NCBI GenBank assembly: GCA_016208975.1
Contig: JACQXA010000004.1
Span: 1,737,015 to 1,801,014 of the forward strand
Direction: 5' to 3'
Origin: Nitrospinota bacterium
GTDB lineage: Bacteria; Nitrospinota_A; UBA7883; JACRLM01
DNA: 64,000 bases
The notes beneath the pieces were generated by a model. The model was not told the DNA's origin. It was given only the letters and a program-made list of their open reading frames with translations, and made no database searches. The translations under genes were made by a program, and so were the position numbers. This document shows positions 34,428-42,789 of the stretch, one piece after another. The stretch's first letter is position 1. Each line of letters opens with the position of its first letter.

Positions 34428-35285
34428 ATGCAAGCCATAGGGCTTGGGTTCTCTTACGGCGACGGGCCGGACATCCTTCAAGGGCTGGATTTCCATCTGC
34501 CCCACGGAGGATTTACCGCCGTGCTGGGCGCCAACGGCTCGGGGAAAACCACTCTGTTGAAACTGCTGTCGGGGCTTGTCAGCCCCAAGAGCGGGGAAAT
34601 AATGTTGCGCGGCCAGCCCATGGGCTCCATATCCCATGAAAAAAGATACACCTCGGTGGGGCTGGTGTTCCAGAACCCGGACGACCAGCTTTTCGCCCTT
34701 ACCGTTGAGGAGGATGTGGCTTTCGGCCCCAGAAACATGGGGCTGGATGAATCCATGGCGCGGAAAAAAACCGTCGAGGCGTTGTGTCTTGTTGGCGCCG
34801 CGCATCTTGCGGACAGGCCGGTTTACGAGCTTAGCTTCGGGCAGAAAAAAAGAGTGGCCATAGCCGGGGCGCTGGCCATGGGCCCTTCCATCCTTTTGCT
34901 GGACGAACCCACCGCCGGGCTGGATCCTGCCGGGGAGCTGAACCTTATGCGCCTGCTGGGCGAACTTCACCGGGACCGGGGCGTGACGATAGTCATGGCC
35001 ACCCATTCGGTGGACCTGCTTCCGCTTTTCGCCGACCGGATTATGATCCTCGAAGAGGGACGGTTGATGAAAGACGCCCCAATAAAAAACGCGCTGGCGG
35101 ACGGGGGGCTCCTGGAACAGGCTGGTCTGCGCCTGCCGTATGTAACCCACCTGATGCGGGAACTTGAAACTAAAGACGGGCTGGAGATGGGAAGCCTGCC
35201 CCTTACCGTGGGGGAAGCCCGGCTCCGGATTCTGGATATCCTTGCCGGGAACGCTTCGAGCATAAAGGCGGTGGCGGACCGATGA
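34428..35285 (+). CDS. cbiO: Cobalt ECF transporter ATPase CbiO
   Basis: A 285-residue ABC ATPase that powers cobalt uptake. Walker A is GANGSGKTT, the Q-loop region is FQNPDDQLF, the signature is LSFGQKKRVAIAG and Walker B is ILLLDEPTAGLDP. The ATG at 34428 has GGAG seven bases upstream; a TTG at 34410 overlapping the cbiQ stop is also possible. Overlaps cbiD by 4 bp. Confidence 0.94.
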   Translation: MQAIGLGFSYGDGPDILQGLDFHLPHGGFTAVLGANGSGKTTLLKLLSGLVSPKSGEIMLRGQPMGSISHEKRYTSVGLVFQNPDDQLFALTVEEDVAFGPRNMGLDESMARKKTVEALCLVGAAHLADRPVYELSFGQKKRVAIAGALAMGPSILLLDEPTAGLDPAGELNLMRLLGELHRDRGVTIVMATHSVDLLPLFADRIMILEEGRLMKDAPIKNALADGGLLEQAGLRLPYVTHLMRELETKDGLEMGSLPLTVGEARLRILDILAGNASSIKAVADR

Positions 35286-36349
35286 GCGGAAAACTCAGGG
35301 AAGGTTACACCACCGGCGCCTGCGCGGCGGCTTCGGCCAAGGCGGCTGTGACGCTGTTGTTAGGCTCGCCCCCTCTAAGGGAGGTGGACATACCGATGCC
35401 CGGCGGTGGAAGAGTGGTTCTGCCGCTGGAATTGGCGGAGACCCGGGGCGCCAGCGCCATGGCCGCCGTCCGCAAAGACGCCGGGGACGACCCGGACATA
35501 ACCAACGGCGCTCTTGTTATGGCCAGCGTTTCATTGGAAAACGGGGAGGATGTGACCTTCAGCGCCGGTGAAGGGGTGGGGGTGGTGACGAAGAAAGGGT
35601 TGCAGATCCCTCCGGGGGAGCCCGCCATAAATCCCGGCCCAAGGCAGATGATAACCAACGCCGTCCGGGAAGTGACCTCGAAAGGGGTGCGGGTGACCAT
35701 ATCCATCCCCGGCGGCCGGGAACTGGCGCAAAAAACCTTCAACCCCAGGCTGGGGGTGGAAGGGGGGCTTTCCATACTCGGCTCCACGGGCATTGTGAGG
35801 CCTTACAGCCATCCGGCGTTGCGCGAGTCGCTCAAATGCGCGCTGGAGGTGGCCTTGGCCGGCGGAAACGAGTTTTTGGTTTTCACCGCCGGTAACATAG
35901 GCTCTAAAACGGCGCTGGCGTTGCTGGATGTGAAACCCGAGGCCGTGGTGGAGGTGAGCAACGAATGGGGCTTCATGCTGGACACGGTGAGGGGAAAACC
36001 GGTAAAAGCCTTGCTGGTGGCTGGCCATCCGGGGAAACTGGCCAAGCTGGCCGGAGGTTATTGGGACACCCATTCGTCCCGTTCCGGTTCCGCCGTTCCA
36101 ATTGTGTCGGCGCTGGCGTCGAAAACCCTGGGCGTCTCCATGGAGGGGCATTCCACGGTGGAAGGGATTTTTGAGACGCTTACGGGCGCTGAAATTAACA
36201 CGGTGGCCTCTGCGCTGGCGGAGCGTGTGCGACAGGCTGTATTGGCGAAGGTGGAACAAAAATTCCCCGTGGCGGTGGCGTTGGTGGACATGAAAGGAAG
36301 GATTCTCGGAGACTCCGGGGATATGGGCCCATGGCCGAAAAAAGGATAA
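35282..36349 (+). CDS. cbiD: Cobalt-precorrin-5B C1-methyltransferase CbiD
   Basis: A 355-residue enzyme specific to the anaerobic (cobalt-early) route, adding the methyl group at C1. The family opening REGYTTGACAAASAKAA is present, with NPGPRQMI and the GSTGIVRPYS segment. It marks this cluster as the CbiD-type pathway and not the CobF/CobG oxygen-dependent one. It overlaps cbiE by 19 bp. Confidence 0.95.
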   Translation: MSGKLREGYTTGACAAASAKAAVTLLLGSPPLREVDIPMPGGGRVVLPLELAETRGASAMAAVRKDAGDDPDITNGALVMASVSLENGEDVTFSAGEGVGVVTKKGLQIPPGEPAINPGPRQMITNAVREVTSKGVRVTISIPGGRELAQKTFNPRLGVEGGLSILGSTGIVRPYSHPALRESLKCALEVALAGGNEFLVFTAGNIGSKTALALLDVKPEAVVEVSNEWGFMLDTVRGKPVKALLVAGHPGKLAKLAGGYWDTHSSRSGSAVPIVSALASKTLGVSMEGHSTVEGIFETLTGAEINTVASALAERVRQAVLAKVEQKFPVAVALVDMKGRILGDSGDMGPWPKKG

Positions 36350-36969
36350 CCATAATCGGCTTTGGTCCCGGTGGGGAGGATTATGTTTCCCCCGTGGCCC
36401 GGCGCAAGGCTTTGGAGGCGGATTGCGTCATAGGCTCACCGAGGCTGTTAAAGCTCCTGCCGGACAGTGGACAGGAAAAAATACCCTACGGGGCTGACAC
36501 CCAAAAAGCGCTGGAGGCCATAGCCGAAAGGATTCCCTCCCGCCGTGTGGCGGTGCTGGTGAGCGGCGACCCGGGCATAAGTAGCCTGGCCACGCCGGTG
36601 ATAAAAAAGTTCGGCTCCGGTATGTGCGAGGTGATACCCGGCGTAAGCTCGGTGCAGTGCGCATTTGCGGCGGTGGGGCTGGGCTGGGCGGACGCCCGGG
36701 TGGTTACGGCCCACGCCAGCGTTCCGGACTCGTTGCTACCATCGCTGATGGAAGAGCCGAAAATAGCGTTTTTGGCCGGTTCGGACGAGGCGGTAAGGTG
36801 GATAGCCGGGATGGCTGTGAAAGCGGGGGCAGGGCGCAGGCTGTTCGTTTGCGAGAACCTCACCCTGCCGGAGGAGCGGGTGAGGGAGTTTGGGCCGGAG
36901 GAATTGATGACTTACAAGGCGCCGTCCATGACGGTGGTTCTGCTTATAAGGAAGGAGTGTTTCAAATGA
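36331..36969 (+). CDS. cbiE: Cobalt-precorrin-7 C5-methyltransferase CbiE
   Basis: A 212-residue SAM-dependent methylase of the tetrapyrrole family: ITIIGFGPGGEDYVSP at the N-terminus, VLVSGDPGISSLA and EVIPGVSSVQCAFA in the binding cleft. Its length covers only the CbiE half of the CobL/CbiET fusion; the C15-methylating and decarboxylating CbiT half is absent here and not found elsewhere in the cluster. Confidence 0.92.
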   Translation: MAEKRITIIGFGPGGEDYVSPVARRKALEADCVIGSPRLLKLLPDSGQEKIPYGADTQKALEAIAERIPSRRVAVLVSGDPGISSLATPVIKKFGSGMCEVIPGVSSVQCAFAAVGLGWADARVVTAHASVPDSLLPSLMEEPKIAFLAGSDEAVRWIAGMAVKAGAGRRLFVCENLTLPEERVREFGPEELMTYKAPSMTVVLLIRKECFK

Positions 36970-37694
36970 CCTACGGCACACTGTACGGCATCGGCGTGGG
37001 GCCGGGCGACCCGGAGCTTGTCACCGTGAAGGGGGCGAGGCTTCTGGGGGAGTGCAAAAAACTTTTCGTGCCCAAGGCGCGGATAAAGGCCGAAAGCGTG
37101 GCGCTTGCCATCATCGAACGGTACGTGAACCCCCAGGCCGTCATTGAGGAACTGGTCTTCCCCATGGTGATGGACAAAAACGAGTTGGAACGGCAGTGGG
37201 CGGAGTCCGCCTCGAAAATAGCCTCGTGGCTTGCCACCGGGCAGGACGCATGTTTCGTTACCCTGGGGGATTCGTTGCTCTACTCCACATACATCTATCT
37301 TGTGCGGGCGCTGAAGAAAGCGGCGCCGGAGGCCAGGGTGTCCACCGTGCCGGGAGTAACGGCGTTTTCCGCCGCCGCGGCTCTCACGGATTTTCCGGTG
37401 GGGGAGGCCAAGGAGCCGGTGACCATCATTCCCGCCGCCGACGATCTGGGCTCTGTGCGGCAGGCCGTCCGGGGGGAAGGGACCGTGATACTGATGAAAG
37501 TGGGTAAAAGGCTTCACGGCATCCTGGACGCTCTGGAGGAGGCGGAGGTTATAGACAGCGCGGTGTTCACCGCCTACGCCGGGCTTGAGGGGGAGCGGGT
37601 AGAGACGAACCTGAGGAACCTGAAGAACGAGGATCCGCAGATTGGCTATCTTTCCACCATCCTCGTGCATTGCGGGAAGAGGAAGGAGGCGTGA
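36966..37694 (+). CDS. cbiL: Cobalt-precorrin-2 C20-methyltransferase CbiL
   Basis: A 242-residue SAM methylase carrying out the first ring methylation after cobalt insertion. It shows YGIGVGPGDPELVTVKGA, FVTLGDSLLYSTYIYL and STVPGVTAFSAAAA, all typical of CbiL/CobI. The ATG at 36966 overlaps the cbiE stop, and its own stop shares a base with cbiF. Confidence 0.93.
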   Translation: MTYGTLYGIGVGPGDPELVTVKGARLLGECKKLFVPKARIKAESVALAIIERYVNPQAVIEELVFPMVMDKNELERQWAESASKIASWLATGQDACFVTLGDSLLYSTYIYLVRALKKAAPEARVSTVPGVTAFSAAAALTDFPVGEAKEPVTIIPAADDLGSVRQAVRGEGTVILMKVGKRLHGILDALEEAEVIDSAVFTAYAGLEGERVETNLRNLKNEDPQIGYLSTILVHCGKRKEA

Positions 37695-38446
37695 TGAAAG
37701 TCTATTTCGTGGGGGGCGGCCCCGGAGATCCGAAACTTCTCACCGTGCGGGCGAAAGAGTTGCTGGAGAACTGCAAATGTTGCGTGTACGCCGGGTCGCT
37801 GGTAAGCGACGAGGTGCTGGCGCTGATACCGGCGGAGGCCGAGAAATACGATTCGGCGGAGATGGACTTGGCTCAAACCGTGGCAGTGGCCGTGAAATGC
37901 GCCGCTAAAAATGTGGACATGGTGCGGTTACATTCGGGCGACCCGTCCATATTCGGCGCCATCAGGGAGCAGATGAACGAGTTGGACAGCCACGGGATAG
38001 CATATGAAGTGGTTCCTGGCGTAAGCTCGTTCCAGGCCGCCGCCGCCGCGCTGAACCTGGAGCTTACGGCGCCGGAAGTGGCGCAGGCGGTTATACTGGC
38101 CAGAACAGCGGGCCGAACGCCGGTTCCGGACGAGCAAGGCATTGACGAGCTGGGAAGGACTCGCTCCACCTTGTGCCTGTTCCTCTCCGTAGGCGACCTG
38201 GAGAACACCGCCACGCGCCTTTCAATCCATTATGGTGAAGACTGCCCCGCCGCCGTGGTAAGCCGGGCCTCATGGCCCGACCAGATGATTCTCACCGGAA
38301 CACTGGCCGACATCGCCGGTAAAACCAAAGATGCGGGGATAAAGAAAACGGCCATGGTCATCGTGGGTTGGGCGCTTTCGCGGGACATTCCCGCCTCCCG
38401 GCTTTACGCCAGCGATTTTTCCCATGGATACCGTCAGGCCAGGTGA
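37694..38446 (+). CDS. cbiF: Cobalt-precorrin-4 C11-methyltransferase CbiF
   Basis: A 250-residue SAM methylase. Landmarks are VYFVGGGPGDPKLLTVRA, YAGSLVSDEVL, RLHSGDPSIFGAI and RTAGRTPVPDEQ, a set characteristic of CbiF/CobM. It starts right at the cbiL stop (GTGATG) with GGAGG just upstream, and overlaps cbiG by 23 bp. Confidence 0.94.
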   Translation: MKVYFVGGGPGDPKLLTVRAKELLENCKCCVYAGSLVSDEVLALIPAEAEKYDSAEMDLAQTVAVAVKCAAKNVDMVRLHSGDPSIFGAIREQMNELDSHGIAYEVVPGVSSFQAAAAALNLELTAPEVAQAVILARTAGRTPVPDEQGIDELGRTRSTLCLFLSVGDLENTATRLSIHYGEDCPAAVVSRASWPDQMILTGTLADIAGKTKDAGIKKTAMVIVGWALSRDIPASRLYASDFSHGYRQAR

Positions 38447-39236
38447 CGCCGCCTGGGTGGCGGTGATAACCCTGTCGCCGGAAGGGGGGAAACTGGCCGG
38501 AGCGCTGTTAAACCGGCTTCCCGGCTCCCGGGGTTACATCCATGAAAAAGCCGCATACGGGGACGGAAGGTTTGAAAAATTTTCGAGGGTGGTGGACCTT
38601 ACCGCCGAAATATTCGGGAAGGTTCGTGGGCTTGTGTACATCGCCCCCTGCGGAGCGGTGGTGCGCGCCATAGCGCCGCACCTGAGCGGGAAGAAGACCG
38701 ACCCTGCGGTTGTGCAGGTGGACATCGGCGGGCGTTACGCCGTAAGCCTTCTGAGCGGCCACGAGGGGGGCGCCAACGACCTTGCCATGGAGGTGGCCAA
38801 CGCCATCGGGGCCGAGCCGGTCATCTCCACATCCACGGAAGCGGCAAAAAATATAATTGTCGGTGTGGGATGCAGGAAAGGAAAATCCGCCGGGTCCATC
38901 AAGGCCGCCATCATGGACTCGCTGGAAATAACCGGGGTGTCGCTTGCAAAAGTACGTTTAATAGCCTCGGCGGACGTGAAGGAGAACGAGCCGGGGTTGA
39001 TCGAGGCGGCCCGGGAGCTTGGATTGCCGGTGAGGTTCATCCCGTCGGAAGACATCCGCCGGGCGGACCTGCCGGTGGAGCGGTCTGATTTCGTTCAAGA
39101 AAAAGTTAACCTGCCAGCGGTCGCCGAACCTGCGGCCCTGCTGGCTGGAAGGAGGACATCATTAATACTGAAGAAACTCAAGCGCGACGGAGTGACGGTG
39201 GCGCTGGCAAAGGAAAACTGTTCGTCGTTGGAATAG
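38424..39236 (+). CDS. cbiG: Cobalt-precorrin-5A hydrolase CbiG
   Basis: A 270-residue enzyme that opens the delta-lactone and releases the two-carbon fragment, allowing ring contraction to proceed. The N-terminal domain has the APCGAVVRAIAPHL and LLSGHEGGANDLA segments, and the C-terminal domain has VGVGCRKGKSAGSIKAAI. It is somewhat short for the family. The 3' end overlaps the apparent 5' end of cbiH by about 76 bp in another frame. Confidence 0.92.
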   Translation: MDTVRPGDAAWVAVITLSPEGGKLAGALLNRLPGSRGYIHEKAAYGDGRFEKFSRVVDLTAEIFGKVRGLVYIAPCGAVVRAIAPHLSGKKTDPAVVQVDIGGRYAVSLLSGHEGGANDLAMEVANAIGAEPVISTSTEAAKNIIVGVGCRKGKSAGSIKAAIMDSLEITGVSLAKVRLIASADVKENEPGLIEAARELGLPVRFIPSEDIRRADLPVERSDFVQEKVNLPAVAEPAALLAGRRTSLILKKLKRDGVTVALAKENCSSLE

Positions 39237-39952
39237 GCCCCGGAGGGCCGCTGGACCGCACAAGACGGGCCGAGGCGGCCATCGCCCAGTGCTCGGTGGT
39301 GGCGGGGTATAAAAGGTATCTGGAAAACGTGGCGGACCTCACCGCCGGGAAGGAGCTGATCTCCTCCGGCATGACACAGGAGACCGAGCGGTGCCGTCAG
39401 GCTTTGGCCAAGGCGGCCGAGGGGCATACCGTGGCGCTCATCTCATCCGGCGACGCCGGGGTGTACGGGATGTCCGGCCTGGCCCTGGAGCTGATGGAAG
39501 AGGACAAGGTGGACGTGGCCGTGGAAATAATCCCCGGCGTGTCCGCCGCCAACGCCGCAGGAGCCAGGCTAGGGGCGCCGCTGATGCTGGATTACGCCAC
39601 CATAAGCTTGAGCGACCTGCTGGTTCCATGGGAGTCCATAAAGATCCGGCTGGAGGCCGTGGCGGCGGCGGATATGGTTACGGCCCTGTACAACCCAAGA
39701 AGCAAGAAACGGGTGGAACAGCTGGCGGAGGCGGCGGAGATATTTAAACGCTACCGGCTTAACAGCACCCCTGTTGGCGTGTGCGACAGCGTGGGTTACG
39801 ATGGGGAGGAGCGGATCATATTGACCGATCTTGATAACTTCCTGTCGGAAGATATAGGCATGATGTCTATCGTCATCATCGGCAACAGCCAGTCCCGCCG
39901 GATGGGGGAATGGTTCGTGACACCCCGCGGATACCGGGGAAAAAGGTTTTAG
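39161..39952 (+). CDS. cbiH: Cobalt-precorrin-3B C17-methyltransferase CbiH, unusual start
   Basis: SAM methylase that carries out the ring contraction step. The conserved N-terminal strand GKLFVVGIGPGG is encoded at about 39210-39245, upstream of the first ATG/GTG/TTG in this frame (GTG 39296), so that shorter reading would lack the SAM-binding opening. Within the frame the best initiation site is ATT at 39161, five bases after AAGGAGG (39149-39155), giving 263 residues. Later motifs (ALISSGDAGVYGMSG, EIIPGVSAANAAGA, ADMVTALYNPRSKKR) are intact. Alternatives are frameshifting from cbiG, a natural CbiG-CbiH fusion broken by a one-base change, or a sequencing error. Confidence 0.8.
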   Translation: MNTEETQARRSDGGAGKGKLFVVGIGPGGPLDRTRRAEAAIAQCSVVAGYKRYLENVADLTAGKELISSGMTQETERCRQALAKAAEGHTVALISSGDAGVYGMSGLALELMEEDKVDVAVEIIPGVSAANAAGARLGAPLMLDYATISLSDLLVPWESIKIRLEAVAAADMVTALYNPRSKKRVEQLAEAAEIFKRYRLNSTPVGVCDSVGYDGEERIILTDLDNFLSEDIGMMSIVIIGNSQSRRMGEWFVTPRGYRGKRF

Positions 39953-40735
39953 ATGAAGGTACTGCTTCTGGGCGGCGCCAGCGAAACCATGCCCCTAGCC
40001 ATGGCCCTGGCCACGCGAGGGCTGGAAGTAATAGCCTCCACCGCCACGGATAACGAGCTGGATGTGGGCGGCCACCCGAAGATCAAAAGGAGAATCGGGC
40101 GGCTCACCGCCGAAGAGATGGCGGCGTTCATCCGTGAAGAGGGGATAGGCGCTGTCCTGGACGCCACGCACCCTTTCGCCGTGGAAGCCCAAAAAAACGC
40201 CATGAGCGCCGCGAATACGGCTGGCTTGCCGTATCTGCGTTTTGAGCGCCCCGGGCTTACGATGGACTATGAACGGGTTCATTGGGCGGACGATCACGAG
40301 GAGGCGGCGCAAATCGCATTTTCATTCGGCAAGGCCGCGCTGTTGACCACAGGGTCCCGGAATCTTGCCCCATACGTCCGGCAATCTGTTGAAACCGGTG
40401 TCCCGTTGGTTGCCAGGGTTTTGCCCCATCCGGAATCGGAAGAGGCATGCCGGAAGAACGGGCTGGATTTCAGTTCCGTTATTTTCGCGCGCGGGCCGTT
40501 CTCGGTGGAGGAAAATCTTGAGACCATCAATAAATACTCCATAGGCGTCATGGTCACCAAGGAAAGCGGCCAGGCGGGCGGCGTTATGGAAAAGGTGGAA
40601 TCGTGCCGGTTATCGGGCATTCCCCTTGTGGTGGTGCGAAGGCCCCGGGAAGAGGCGGGAGATTCTTTCGCCGATATGGAAAAGATAACGCAGGCGGTTA
40701 TGGTTATCGCCGGAGGGAATGGCGCCAATGGGTAA
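39953..40735 (+). CDS. cbiJ: Precorrin-6A/cobalt-precorrin-6A reductase
   Basis: A 260-residue NAD(P)H-dependent reductase of the CbiJ/CobK family, reducing the corrin macrocycle. The N-terminal Rossmann strand is VLLLGGASETMPLA, followed by AVLDATHPFA and, near the C-terminus, IGVMVTKESGQAGG. It starts directly after the cbiH stop and overlaps the next gene by 17 bp. Confidence 0.92.
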   Translation: MKVLLLGGASETMPLAMALATRGLEVIASTATDNELDVGGHPKIKRRIGRLTAEEMAAFIREEGIGAVLDATHPFAVEAQKNAMSAANTAGLPYLRFERPGLTMDYERVHWADDHEEAAQIAFSFGKAALLTTGSRNLAPYVRQSVETGVPLVARVLPHPESEEACRKNGLDFSSVIFARGPFSVEENLETINKYSIGVMVTKESGQAGGVMEKVESCRLSGIPLVVVRRPREEAGDSFADMEKITQAVMVIAGGNGANG

Positions 40736-42251
40736 GCCCGCCCGTTGCCTGGCGGTGTTCGGCTCCGGCTCCGACGTGGGTAAAAGCGTTACGGCGGCGG
40801 CATTGTGCCGTATATTTTACGGAATGGGCCTGCGGGTGGCGCCGTTCAAGGCCCAGAACATGTCCAACAACTCCAGCGTCACCATGGACGGCGGCGAGAT
40901 AGGCCGCGCCCAAGCCGTGCAGGCCGAGTGTTGCGGCGTGGAGCCCTCGGTGCACATGAACCCGCTTCTGCTCAAACCCTCGGCGGAAAACAGGTCGCAG
41001 ATGGTGCTATTGGGTAAAGTGGCCGGGGAAATGACCTCCGGCGATTTCAGGAAAGATAAAACCTGGCTGTTTTCCAGAACACAGGAGAGCCTAGACAAAC
41101 TGCGCGCCGCGAACGACCTGGTGATAATCGAGGGCGCCGGGTCCTGCGCGGAGGTGAACCTGAGGGAGTTCGACCTGGCGAATTTCCGCACGGCAATATC
41201 TTGTGGCGCGCCGGTCCTGCTGGTGGCGGACATAGACCGGGGCGGGGTTTTCGCCCAGGTTATAGGAACATTGGAGCTTCTAACGCCGCAGGAGAGGGCG
41301 ATGGTAAGGGGAATCATCATCAACCGGTTCCGAGGCGACCCGTCGCTTTTTACCGAAGGAGTTGGATTTATTGAGCGCCGGACGGGCCTGCCGGTGCTGG
41401 GGGTGATACCCCAATTCACCCATATAACCATAGACCACGAAGACAGCGTGTCGCTGGAAAAACTTACCGACCCTCAAACCGTCGCCTTGCCGGACAAGAT
41501 AAACATCGCGGTGGTGAAACTCCCCCGCATATCGAATTTCACCGATTTCGCGCCGCTGGCGGCGGAGCCTTCGGCGAAGGTTTCGTATCTTTCCAAACCC
41601 CGGGCGCTGGATGGCATGGATCTTCTGCTGATACCCGGAAGCAAAGCCACCATAGCGGATCTGCGGTGGCTCAAGGAAACCGGCTGGGCGGATATCATAA
41701 AAACCTACGCCGCTGGTGGCGGCAGAGTGGGCGGTATCTGCGGCGGCTACCAGATGATGGGGTTGAAAATGGAGGACCCTCACGGGGTGGAGGGCGTTCC
41801 GGGCGAAGAGGAGGAGGGGCTTGGTCTGTTGGAAGCCAGAACGGTAATGGGGGCCGAAAAAAGAGTTGCCAGGGTAATGGGCCGGTGGGTTGACGGTGGA
41901 CACAGGCTGAGCGGGTACGAGATACACATGGGAATCACCATCACCGGGAACGGAGTTTTAAAACCTCTTGAGATGATGGATGAAGATGGCGCATATAGGC
42001 CGGAGGGCGCCATGTCCCATGGCGGAAAGGTTTGGGGGGGCTATGTGCATGGCCTGTTCGACGAACCCTCTTTCCGCGTCCCGTTCCTGAAGGGCCTCAA
42101 ATCGATGGATATGGCTGGCGCCTTCGATTCCGGGCCATCAAGGCAGGGGCAGTATGATCTGCTGGCGGAGCATTTCAAACGGCATCTGGATATGGATAAA
42201 TTGCTGGAGATAGCTGGCGTGGCCGCATATCAGCCCCCGGAGGAGAGATAA
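40719..42251 (+). CDS. cbiP: Cobyric acid synthase CbiP
   Basis: A 510-residue glutamine-dependent amidotransferase that amidates the b, d, e and g side chains of adenosyl-cobyrinate diamide. The P-loop region VFGSGSDVGKSV, the PFKAQNMSNNS motif and the glutaminase Cys in GGICGGYQMMG are all present, with the late GYVHGLFD His. The length is normal. One base separates it from cobO. Confidence 0.95.
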   Translation: MAPMGKPARCLAVFGSGSDVGKSVTAAALCRIFYGMGLRVAPFKAQNMSNNSSVTMDGGEIGRAQAVQAECCGVEPSVHMNPLLLKPSAENRSQMVLLGKVAGEMTSGDFRKDKTWLFSRTQESLDKLRAANDLVIIEGAGSCAEVNLREFDLANFRTAISCGAPVLLVADIDRGGVFAQVIGTLELLTPQERAMVRGIIINRFRGDPSLFTEGVGFIERRTGLPVLGVIPQFTHITIDHEDSVSLEKLTDPQTVALPDKINIAVVKLPRISNFTDFAPLAAEPSAKVSYLSKPRALDGMDLLLIPGSKATIADLRWLKETGWADIIKTYAAGGGRVGGICGGYQMMGLKMEDPHGVEGVPGEEEEGLGLLEARTVMGAEKRVARVMGRWVDGGHRLSGYEIHMGITITGNGVLKPLEMMDEDGAYRPEGAMSHGGKVWGGYVHGLFDEPSFRVPFLKGLKSMDMAGAFDSGPSRQGQYDLLAEHFKRHLDMDKLLEIAGVAAYQPPEER

Positions 42252-42252
42252 G

Positions 42253-42789
42253 ATGGACAAACAGGAAACGCGCGGCCTAACGGTGATATTCACCGGCGAC
42301 GGCAAGGGTAAAACCTCCGCCATGCTGGGGGCGGTCATGCGGGCGCTGGGGCATGGCATGAAATGCAAGGTTATCCAGTTCATCAAGGCCAACAGCGCCA
42401 CGGGGGAGCTTGAGACGGCGAAAAGGCTGGCTCCCCAGCTTGAGATAGTCCAGGCCGGGCTTGGCTTCACTTGGCTCCCCGGCCACGGTATTGATGAACA
42501 TGAGAAAGCCGCTCAAGCTGGATTGGCTTTGGCAATGGAAGCCCTTGCCTCCGCCGATTACGGGCTGGTGGCGATGGACGAGGCGCTTTACGCCTTGAAA
42601 AAGGGGCTTGTATCGCTGGATCAGTTAAAACAGGCTGTACTCGCCAAACCGGCCCACACCCACCTCATTCTCACGGGGCGGGGCGCGCCCCAGGAGCTTG
42701 TGGAACTGGCCGATATGGTGACCAGTATGGAATCTGTTAAACATCCCATGAGCAAAGGCATCCCCGCCCAGCCAGGGCTGGATTATTGA
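42253..42789 (+). CDS. cobO: Cob(I)yrinic acid a,c-diamide adenosyltransferase
   Basis: A 178-residue CobA/CobO-type enzyme that adds the 5'-deoxyadenosyl ligand to the corrinoid cobalt. It has the P-loop FTGDGKGKTSA and the VIQFIK and VAMDEALYALKKG segments of the family. It is the last gene of the operon. A palindrome TTGATTA/TAATCAA (42786-42801) overlaps the stop, but it has no T-run. No gene is seen in 42790-43087. Confidence 0.93.
   Translation: MDKQETRGLTVIFTGDGKGKTSAMLGAVMRALGHGMKCKVIQFIKANSATGELETAKRLAPQLEIVQAGLGFTWLPGHGIDEHEKAAQAGLALAMEALASADYGLVAMDEALYALKKGLVSLDQLKQAVLAKPAHTHLILTGRGAPQELVELADMVTSMESVKHPMSKGIPAQPGLDY

Follow-up and report, generated by a model that had tools for sequence, protein, structure and literature searches.

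A very likely AUU start codon for cbiH inside its overlap with cbiG, shared by two bacterial phyla

Where does translation of cbiH begin when its reading frame offers no ordinary start codon ahead of the conserved core of the protein? The question is raised by a 64,000-nucleotide stretch of a Nitrospinota genome (here termed the window). A preliminary description of this DNA had stated that no ATG, GTG or TTG lies in frame upstream of the SAM-binding segment FVVGIGPGG of CbiH, and our analysis agrees: the segment begins at 39221 and the earliest such codon is a GTG at 39296, downstream of the motif. An ATT at 39161, five bases past an AAGGAGG sequence, had been proposed as the start, with a frameshift, indel or base change in a former cbiG-cbiH fusion as the alternative. 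Initiation at AUU is very uncommon: NTG starts account for 99.84% of bacterial coding sequences in one survey (PMC5850271), and among 61,358 reconstructed AUG starts a single one had switched to AUU (PMC5622118). The literature searched contained no description of cbiH/cobJ starting at AUU. From the sequence comparisons described below, we consider the ATT start of cbiH very likely to be real.

Results

The gene belongs to an anaerobic B12 operon comprising cbiD, three TP-methylase genes, cbiG, cbiH, cbiJ, a cobQ-type amidotransferase gene and cobO, in a draft genome of 2.97 Mb and four contigs. Within this operon (window 35282-42789), a cbiE-type gene (36331-36969) has no adjacent cbiT or cbiC, and no Rfam elements were detected at the gathering threshold between 34000 and 43000. 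The cbiG and cbiH features given below lie on the plus strand. The cobalt-precorrin-5A hydrolase gene cbiG (38424-39236) ends with a TAG at 39234-39236. The frame of cbiH/cobJ, encoding the C17-methyltransferase, is -1 relative to cbiG and open from after a TAA at 39107-39109 up to a TAG at 39950-39952. Counted from the ATT, cbiH covers 39161-39952 (263 codons) and shares the last 76 nt of cbiG. Both proteins are intact and full length, as judged by Pfam CbiG_N and CbiG_C for CbiG and by TIGR01466 (cobJ_cbiH; 293.9 bits against a cut-off of 246.35, 8.8e-88) for CbiH, which also matches PDB 2zvb (1.5e-55) and retains its GxGPG motif.

The putative initiation signal is embedded in cbiG. Its Shine-Dalgarno sequence AAGGAGG (39149-39155) contains AGG AGG, read in cbiG as Arg243-Arg244, and is separated by a confirmed 5-nt spacer (ACATC) from the ATT at 39161-39163, which is formed by the last base of the Ser246 codon TCA and the first two of the Leu247 codon TTA. 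The 16S rRNA tail of the window genome, TGGATCACCTCCTT, pairs with AAGGAGG over 7 bp. This duplex, at -11.0 kcal/mol, ranks with the strongest in the operon; the value for cbiG's own ATG is -2.9.

We searched 24 genomes of the window's phylum and found a close CbiH in 15, of which 12 have the same junction, two (L013 and L016) combine a shortened cbiG with an ATG and one (L020) is distant. A search of the phylum of Desulfatitalea alkaliphila yielded 36 more genomes with the same junction, including that named isolate, for a total of 48; the phylum labels of the relatives rest on loci L034, L035 and L036. In all 48, the ATT occupies exactly codon -23 counted from the GxGPG glycine, within the pattern GGAG-NAC-NNN-ATT-A, and 33 have no ATG, GTG or TTG between codons -60 and -4 relative to the motif. 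Moreover, an in-frame TGA directly precedes the ATT in one genome (L144) and an in-frame TAG lies within the Shine-Dalgarno sequence in another (L143), so that entry into the cbiH frame from farther upstream is blocked in these two. Eight of the 48 carry an ATG or TTG seven codons past the ATT (codon -16), which may serve as a second start there. The wider CbiH tree places all ATT rows in a single clade (SH-aLRT 100, branch 0.5), within which five exceptions are nested. The trait counts as a single origin; raw genome counts overstate independence, which comes from substitutions within the clade.

This distribution bears on two other accounts of the junction. A sequencing error or decayed gene might be suspected in a draft assembly of four contigs, but the identical junction in 47 other genomes and the full-length CbiG and CbiH with their conserved motifs leave this idea a negligible probability. 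The indel or base change in a former fusion considered in the preliminary description is likewise not borne out: the junction check in relatives that it had called for revealed separate cbiG and cbiH frames in all 48 genomes, no fusion as one continuous open frame in any of them, and a two-gene layout that needs no indel.

A programmed -1 frameshift in the overlap, stimulated by the internal Shine-Dalgarno sequence, would also join CbiG and CbiH. It would fit the -1 register of cbiH in 48/48 genomes and the position of a Shine-Dalgarno-like sequence inside a coding region, as at the known bacterial sites in dnaX and prfB. We nevertheless regard it as very improbable on several grounds. The permitted stretch contains no X XXY YYZ slippery heptamer in 46 of the 48 genomes, and in the other two the heptamers occupy differing positions, each over 120 nt 5' of the motif. 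A shift to the -1 frame would leave the conserved TTA-ATA unable to re-pair. The Shine-Dalgarno sequence is 5 nt away from this site, whereas about 10 nt or more separates the two elements at dnaX-type sites. Finally, cbiH keeps a separate start in three genomes in which cbiG is not adjacent (G104, G067 and G603).

Initiation at the ATT is further favored by codon-level tests of whether CbiG coding accounts for the signal. We resampled synonymous cbiG codons by usage in 1,000 draws and obtained the Shine-Dalgarno sequence plus ATT in a mean of 0.39 of 48 genomes (maximum 3), against 48 of 48 observed; for 18 representatives sharing <72% identity, 18 were observed and 0.17 expected. Across the signal, CbiG reads L-L-A-G-R-R-T-x-L-I-L. 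Residue x varies among seven amino acids (S, T, K, R, E, Q or A) encoded by eight codons, every one of which ends in A (48/48), and the leucine after it is TTA in 48/48 although TTA makes up 4.5% of leucine codons in these cbiG genes. By comparison, five different codons occur for the CbiG leucine at -31 and six for that at -30. The tree of ATT rows requires a minimum of 19 replacements of x, all of which left its wobble base, the A of ATT, intact. Over the same tree, 15 changes are counted for the leucine codon at -31 and 16 for that at -30, and none for TTA. On these codon statistics, conservation of the ATT is greater than CbiG coding explains.

Stop codons in the cbiH frame follow the same boundary. 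None occurs after the ATT in the 48 genomes (21.3 expected) or in the 18 representatives (7.8 expected), and the 25 genomes with a stop before the Shine-Dalgarno sequence compare with 20.6 expected. Canonical starts further upstream, such as an ATG at -116 in Desulfatitalea, had been considered and were rejected, as they are not shared and stops before the ATT occur at chance frequency. Between the ATT and the next possible start (codons -23 to -17), 47 genomes contain 0 stops against 8.4 expected; in the same stretch, the 18 representatives contain 0 against 3.65 (P about 0.02). Together, the conservation in 48 genomes and the codon-level tests strongly support the ATT start named in the preliminary description.

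The stop-free codons also speak against a CTG at 39218-39220, directly before FVVGIGPGG. A product started there would have the N-terminus MFVVGIG, similar to that of many CbiH proteins, an AAAGGA lies a few bases upstream, and CTG occupies this codon in 33 of the 48 genomes. The codon is TTG in two genomes and others such as CTC elsewhere, so that 13 genomes lack both CTG and a canonical start at this position, and a CTG start would leave both the conserved Shine-Dalgarno-ATT pair and the absence of stops in codons -23 to -17 unexplained. We therefore rejected this candidate, which is not conserved and is very improbable as the cbiH start.

Why an ATT should be retained is suggested by the genetic code in this register. 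Any NTG start places TGN in cbiG, encoding Cys, Trp or, if A comes next, a stop; ATA yields Tyr or a stop, ATC yields Ser, and ATT yields Leu (TTA/TTG) or Phe. Among known starts, ATT alone keeps the CbiG leucine. This residue, Leu247, does not vary among 32 aligned CbiG proteins and lies in the first of two modelled beta strands (245-254 and 257-264; block pLDDT about 95), which form a hairpin encoded almost wholly inside the overlap. The first 18 CbiH codons (39161-39214), a variable leader up to Gly18, are doubly coding with this hairpin, and none of the 48 genomes has a CbiH-frame stop in the region after the ATT. The model of CbiH shows residues 1-14 as disordered (pLDDT below 50), which suggests that most of the constraint is imposed by CbiG. 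Dual coding is likely to be the cause of the ATT, since an NTG would destroy the invariant CbiG leucine.

The five exceptions within the ATT clade (L013, L016, L050, L051 and L135) have each lost or shortened the overlap. In L013 and L016, cbiG stops short of a new ATG, and the corresponding codons read CGG..CTT and CGG..CTG. In L050 and L051, cbiG is not adjacent and the ATT is retained beside a new ATG two codons on; either codon could be used as the start. In L135 (G603), cbiG is found on a different contig, with the corresponding codons CGG AGG ACA ACG CTT, and the nearest canonical start of cbiH is a TTG. In genome G067 (L166), which belongs to the same set of exceptions, a 1.8-kb stretch with a TIR/Lcl_C gene separates cbiG from cbiH; cbiG has lost the Shine-Dalgarno codons (AAA AAG) and kept TTA, and cbiH carries AGGAGG and ATT, with a new ATG two codons past the latter. 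G104 resembles G067; cbiG was looked for in this draft genome and not found. Overall, the Shine-Dalgarno codons are altered in 4/4 exceptions with a readable cbiG, and the leucine codon is CTT or CTG in 3/4. Canonical starts appear to arise where the overlap is lost, a direction of change that the tree alone does not prove.

As a separate observation, the gene between cbiG and cbiH in G067 (L166 1278-2264, contig 142) encodes a protein with a TIR domain and an Lcl C-terminal domain. It was apparently inserted at the former overlap, and similar short stretches flank it on both sides.

These lineages also inform a further possibility, in which AUU is the start but is kept mainly for low or IF3-controlled CbiH synthesis rather than by the overlap, a role that has been proposed for infC, pcnB and Staphylococcus aureus cvfC1. 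Known AUU starts do reduce yield: expression from S. aureus AUU (as in cvfC1) and AUA starts in poor medium was about 10% of that from AUG (PMC13009471). We consider this reading unlikely for cbiH, as lineages without the overlap gained a canonical start and a Shine-Dalgarno sequence among the strongest in the operon works against low yield. Constraint by dual coding is compatible with selection for low CbiH output as well.

Discussion

Taking together the position of the AUU, its Shine-Dalgarno sequence, its conservation and the reading-frame constraint, and for the lock the code table and the lineage pattern, we infer, with a probability of roughly 0.9, that cbiH is translated from AUU 39161 and locked into this codon by the overlap with cbiG. 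The near-perfect AAGGAGG five bases 5' would recruit the 30S subunit, and the initiator tRNA would start at AUU 39161; CbiH would presumably begin with fMet-Asn-Thr, continue as a short disordered leader and reach its SAM-binding strand after that. The weak codon is probably compensated by the strong Shine-Dalgarno sequence and by the A after the start (AUUA); bacterial genes in general are enriched in A at the fourth position (PMC5850271). Because the start would lie within the last cbiG codons, which encode a conserved beta hairpin, the overlap would hold cbiH to AUU.

By sequence criteria, cbiH resembles AUU genes with a strong Shine-Dalgarno sequence, having a suitably spaced in-frame AUU and, in 33 of 48 genomes, no canonical start. 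The closest likeness is Escherichia coli infC, the gene of IF3, with GGAGG upstream, an AUU start and A as fourth base (ATTAAA; NC_000913 reads ggaggaataaggtATTAAA). In contrast to cbiH, a metabolic gene starting 76 nt inside the preceding gene, infC does not overlap thrS in the annotation, and its AUU serves IF3 autoregulation (PMC13009471). S. aureus cvfC1 (AUU) and ccpN (AUA) likewise combine a conserved non-canonical start with an extended, strong Shine-Dalgarno sequence (PMC13009471). Conservation of cvfC1 is within staphylococci and that of ccpN reaches to Bacillus subtilis, whereas the cbiH junction occurs in two phyla; the staphylococcal starts were shown by ribosome profiling and reporters (PMC13009471), whereas that of cbiH is read from sequence. 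Furthermore, cvfC1 heads its operon, and no overlap lock is described for it (PMC13009471). E. coli pcnB also has a chromosomal AUU start, which, according to the work of Binns and Masters (2002) as cited in PMC13009471, is read as a limit on expression.

Known AUU cases are thus read as regulation, whereas the AUU of cbiH seems to have been fixed across two phyla for lack of an alternative. This makes cbiG-cbiH a test case for overlaps shaping start codons and suggests that a strong Shine-Dalgarno sequence can carry a needed enzyme on AUU. Gene callers limited to ATG, GTG and TTG would be expected to truncate or extend CbiH in these genomes. A combined role, in which the overlap locks the AUU in place and the AUU additionally acts as a control point for low, IF3-dependent synthesis of the ring-contraction enzyme CbiH inside cbiG, appears rather doubtful; if true, translation status would set anaerobic B12 flux across two phyla.

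In two distant cbiH genes, L086 (G273) and L090 (G190), a canonical start is likewise missing nearby, and an ATT follows a purine-rich, Shine-Dalgarno-like sequence, about 10 codons before GxGPG and over the CbiG segment VT[L/F]A. They may represent an independent case of an ATT start, comprising two genomes only.

Other cbiG-cbiH pairs use ordinary starts. L061, L083 and L105 have the same -1 frame and an ATG in the same part of cbiG, with Cys or Trp in CbiG opposite the ATG, whereas CbiG of the ATT clade keeps Leu. Among lineages with an ATG inside cbiG, the CbiG residues at this site are 'RC' in L061, L074 and L105, 'LC' in L083, L084 and L094, and 'IW' in L102, L107 and L111. The Cys or Trp at these nine loci resembles a footprint of the start codon in the overlapping protein.
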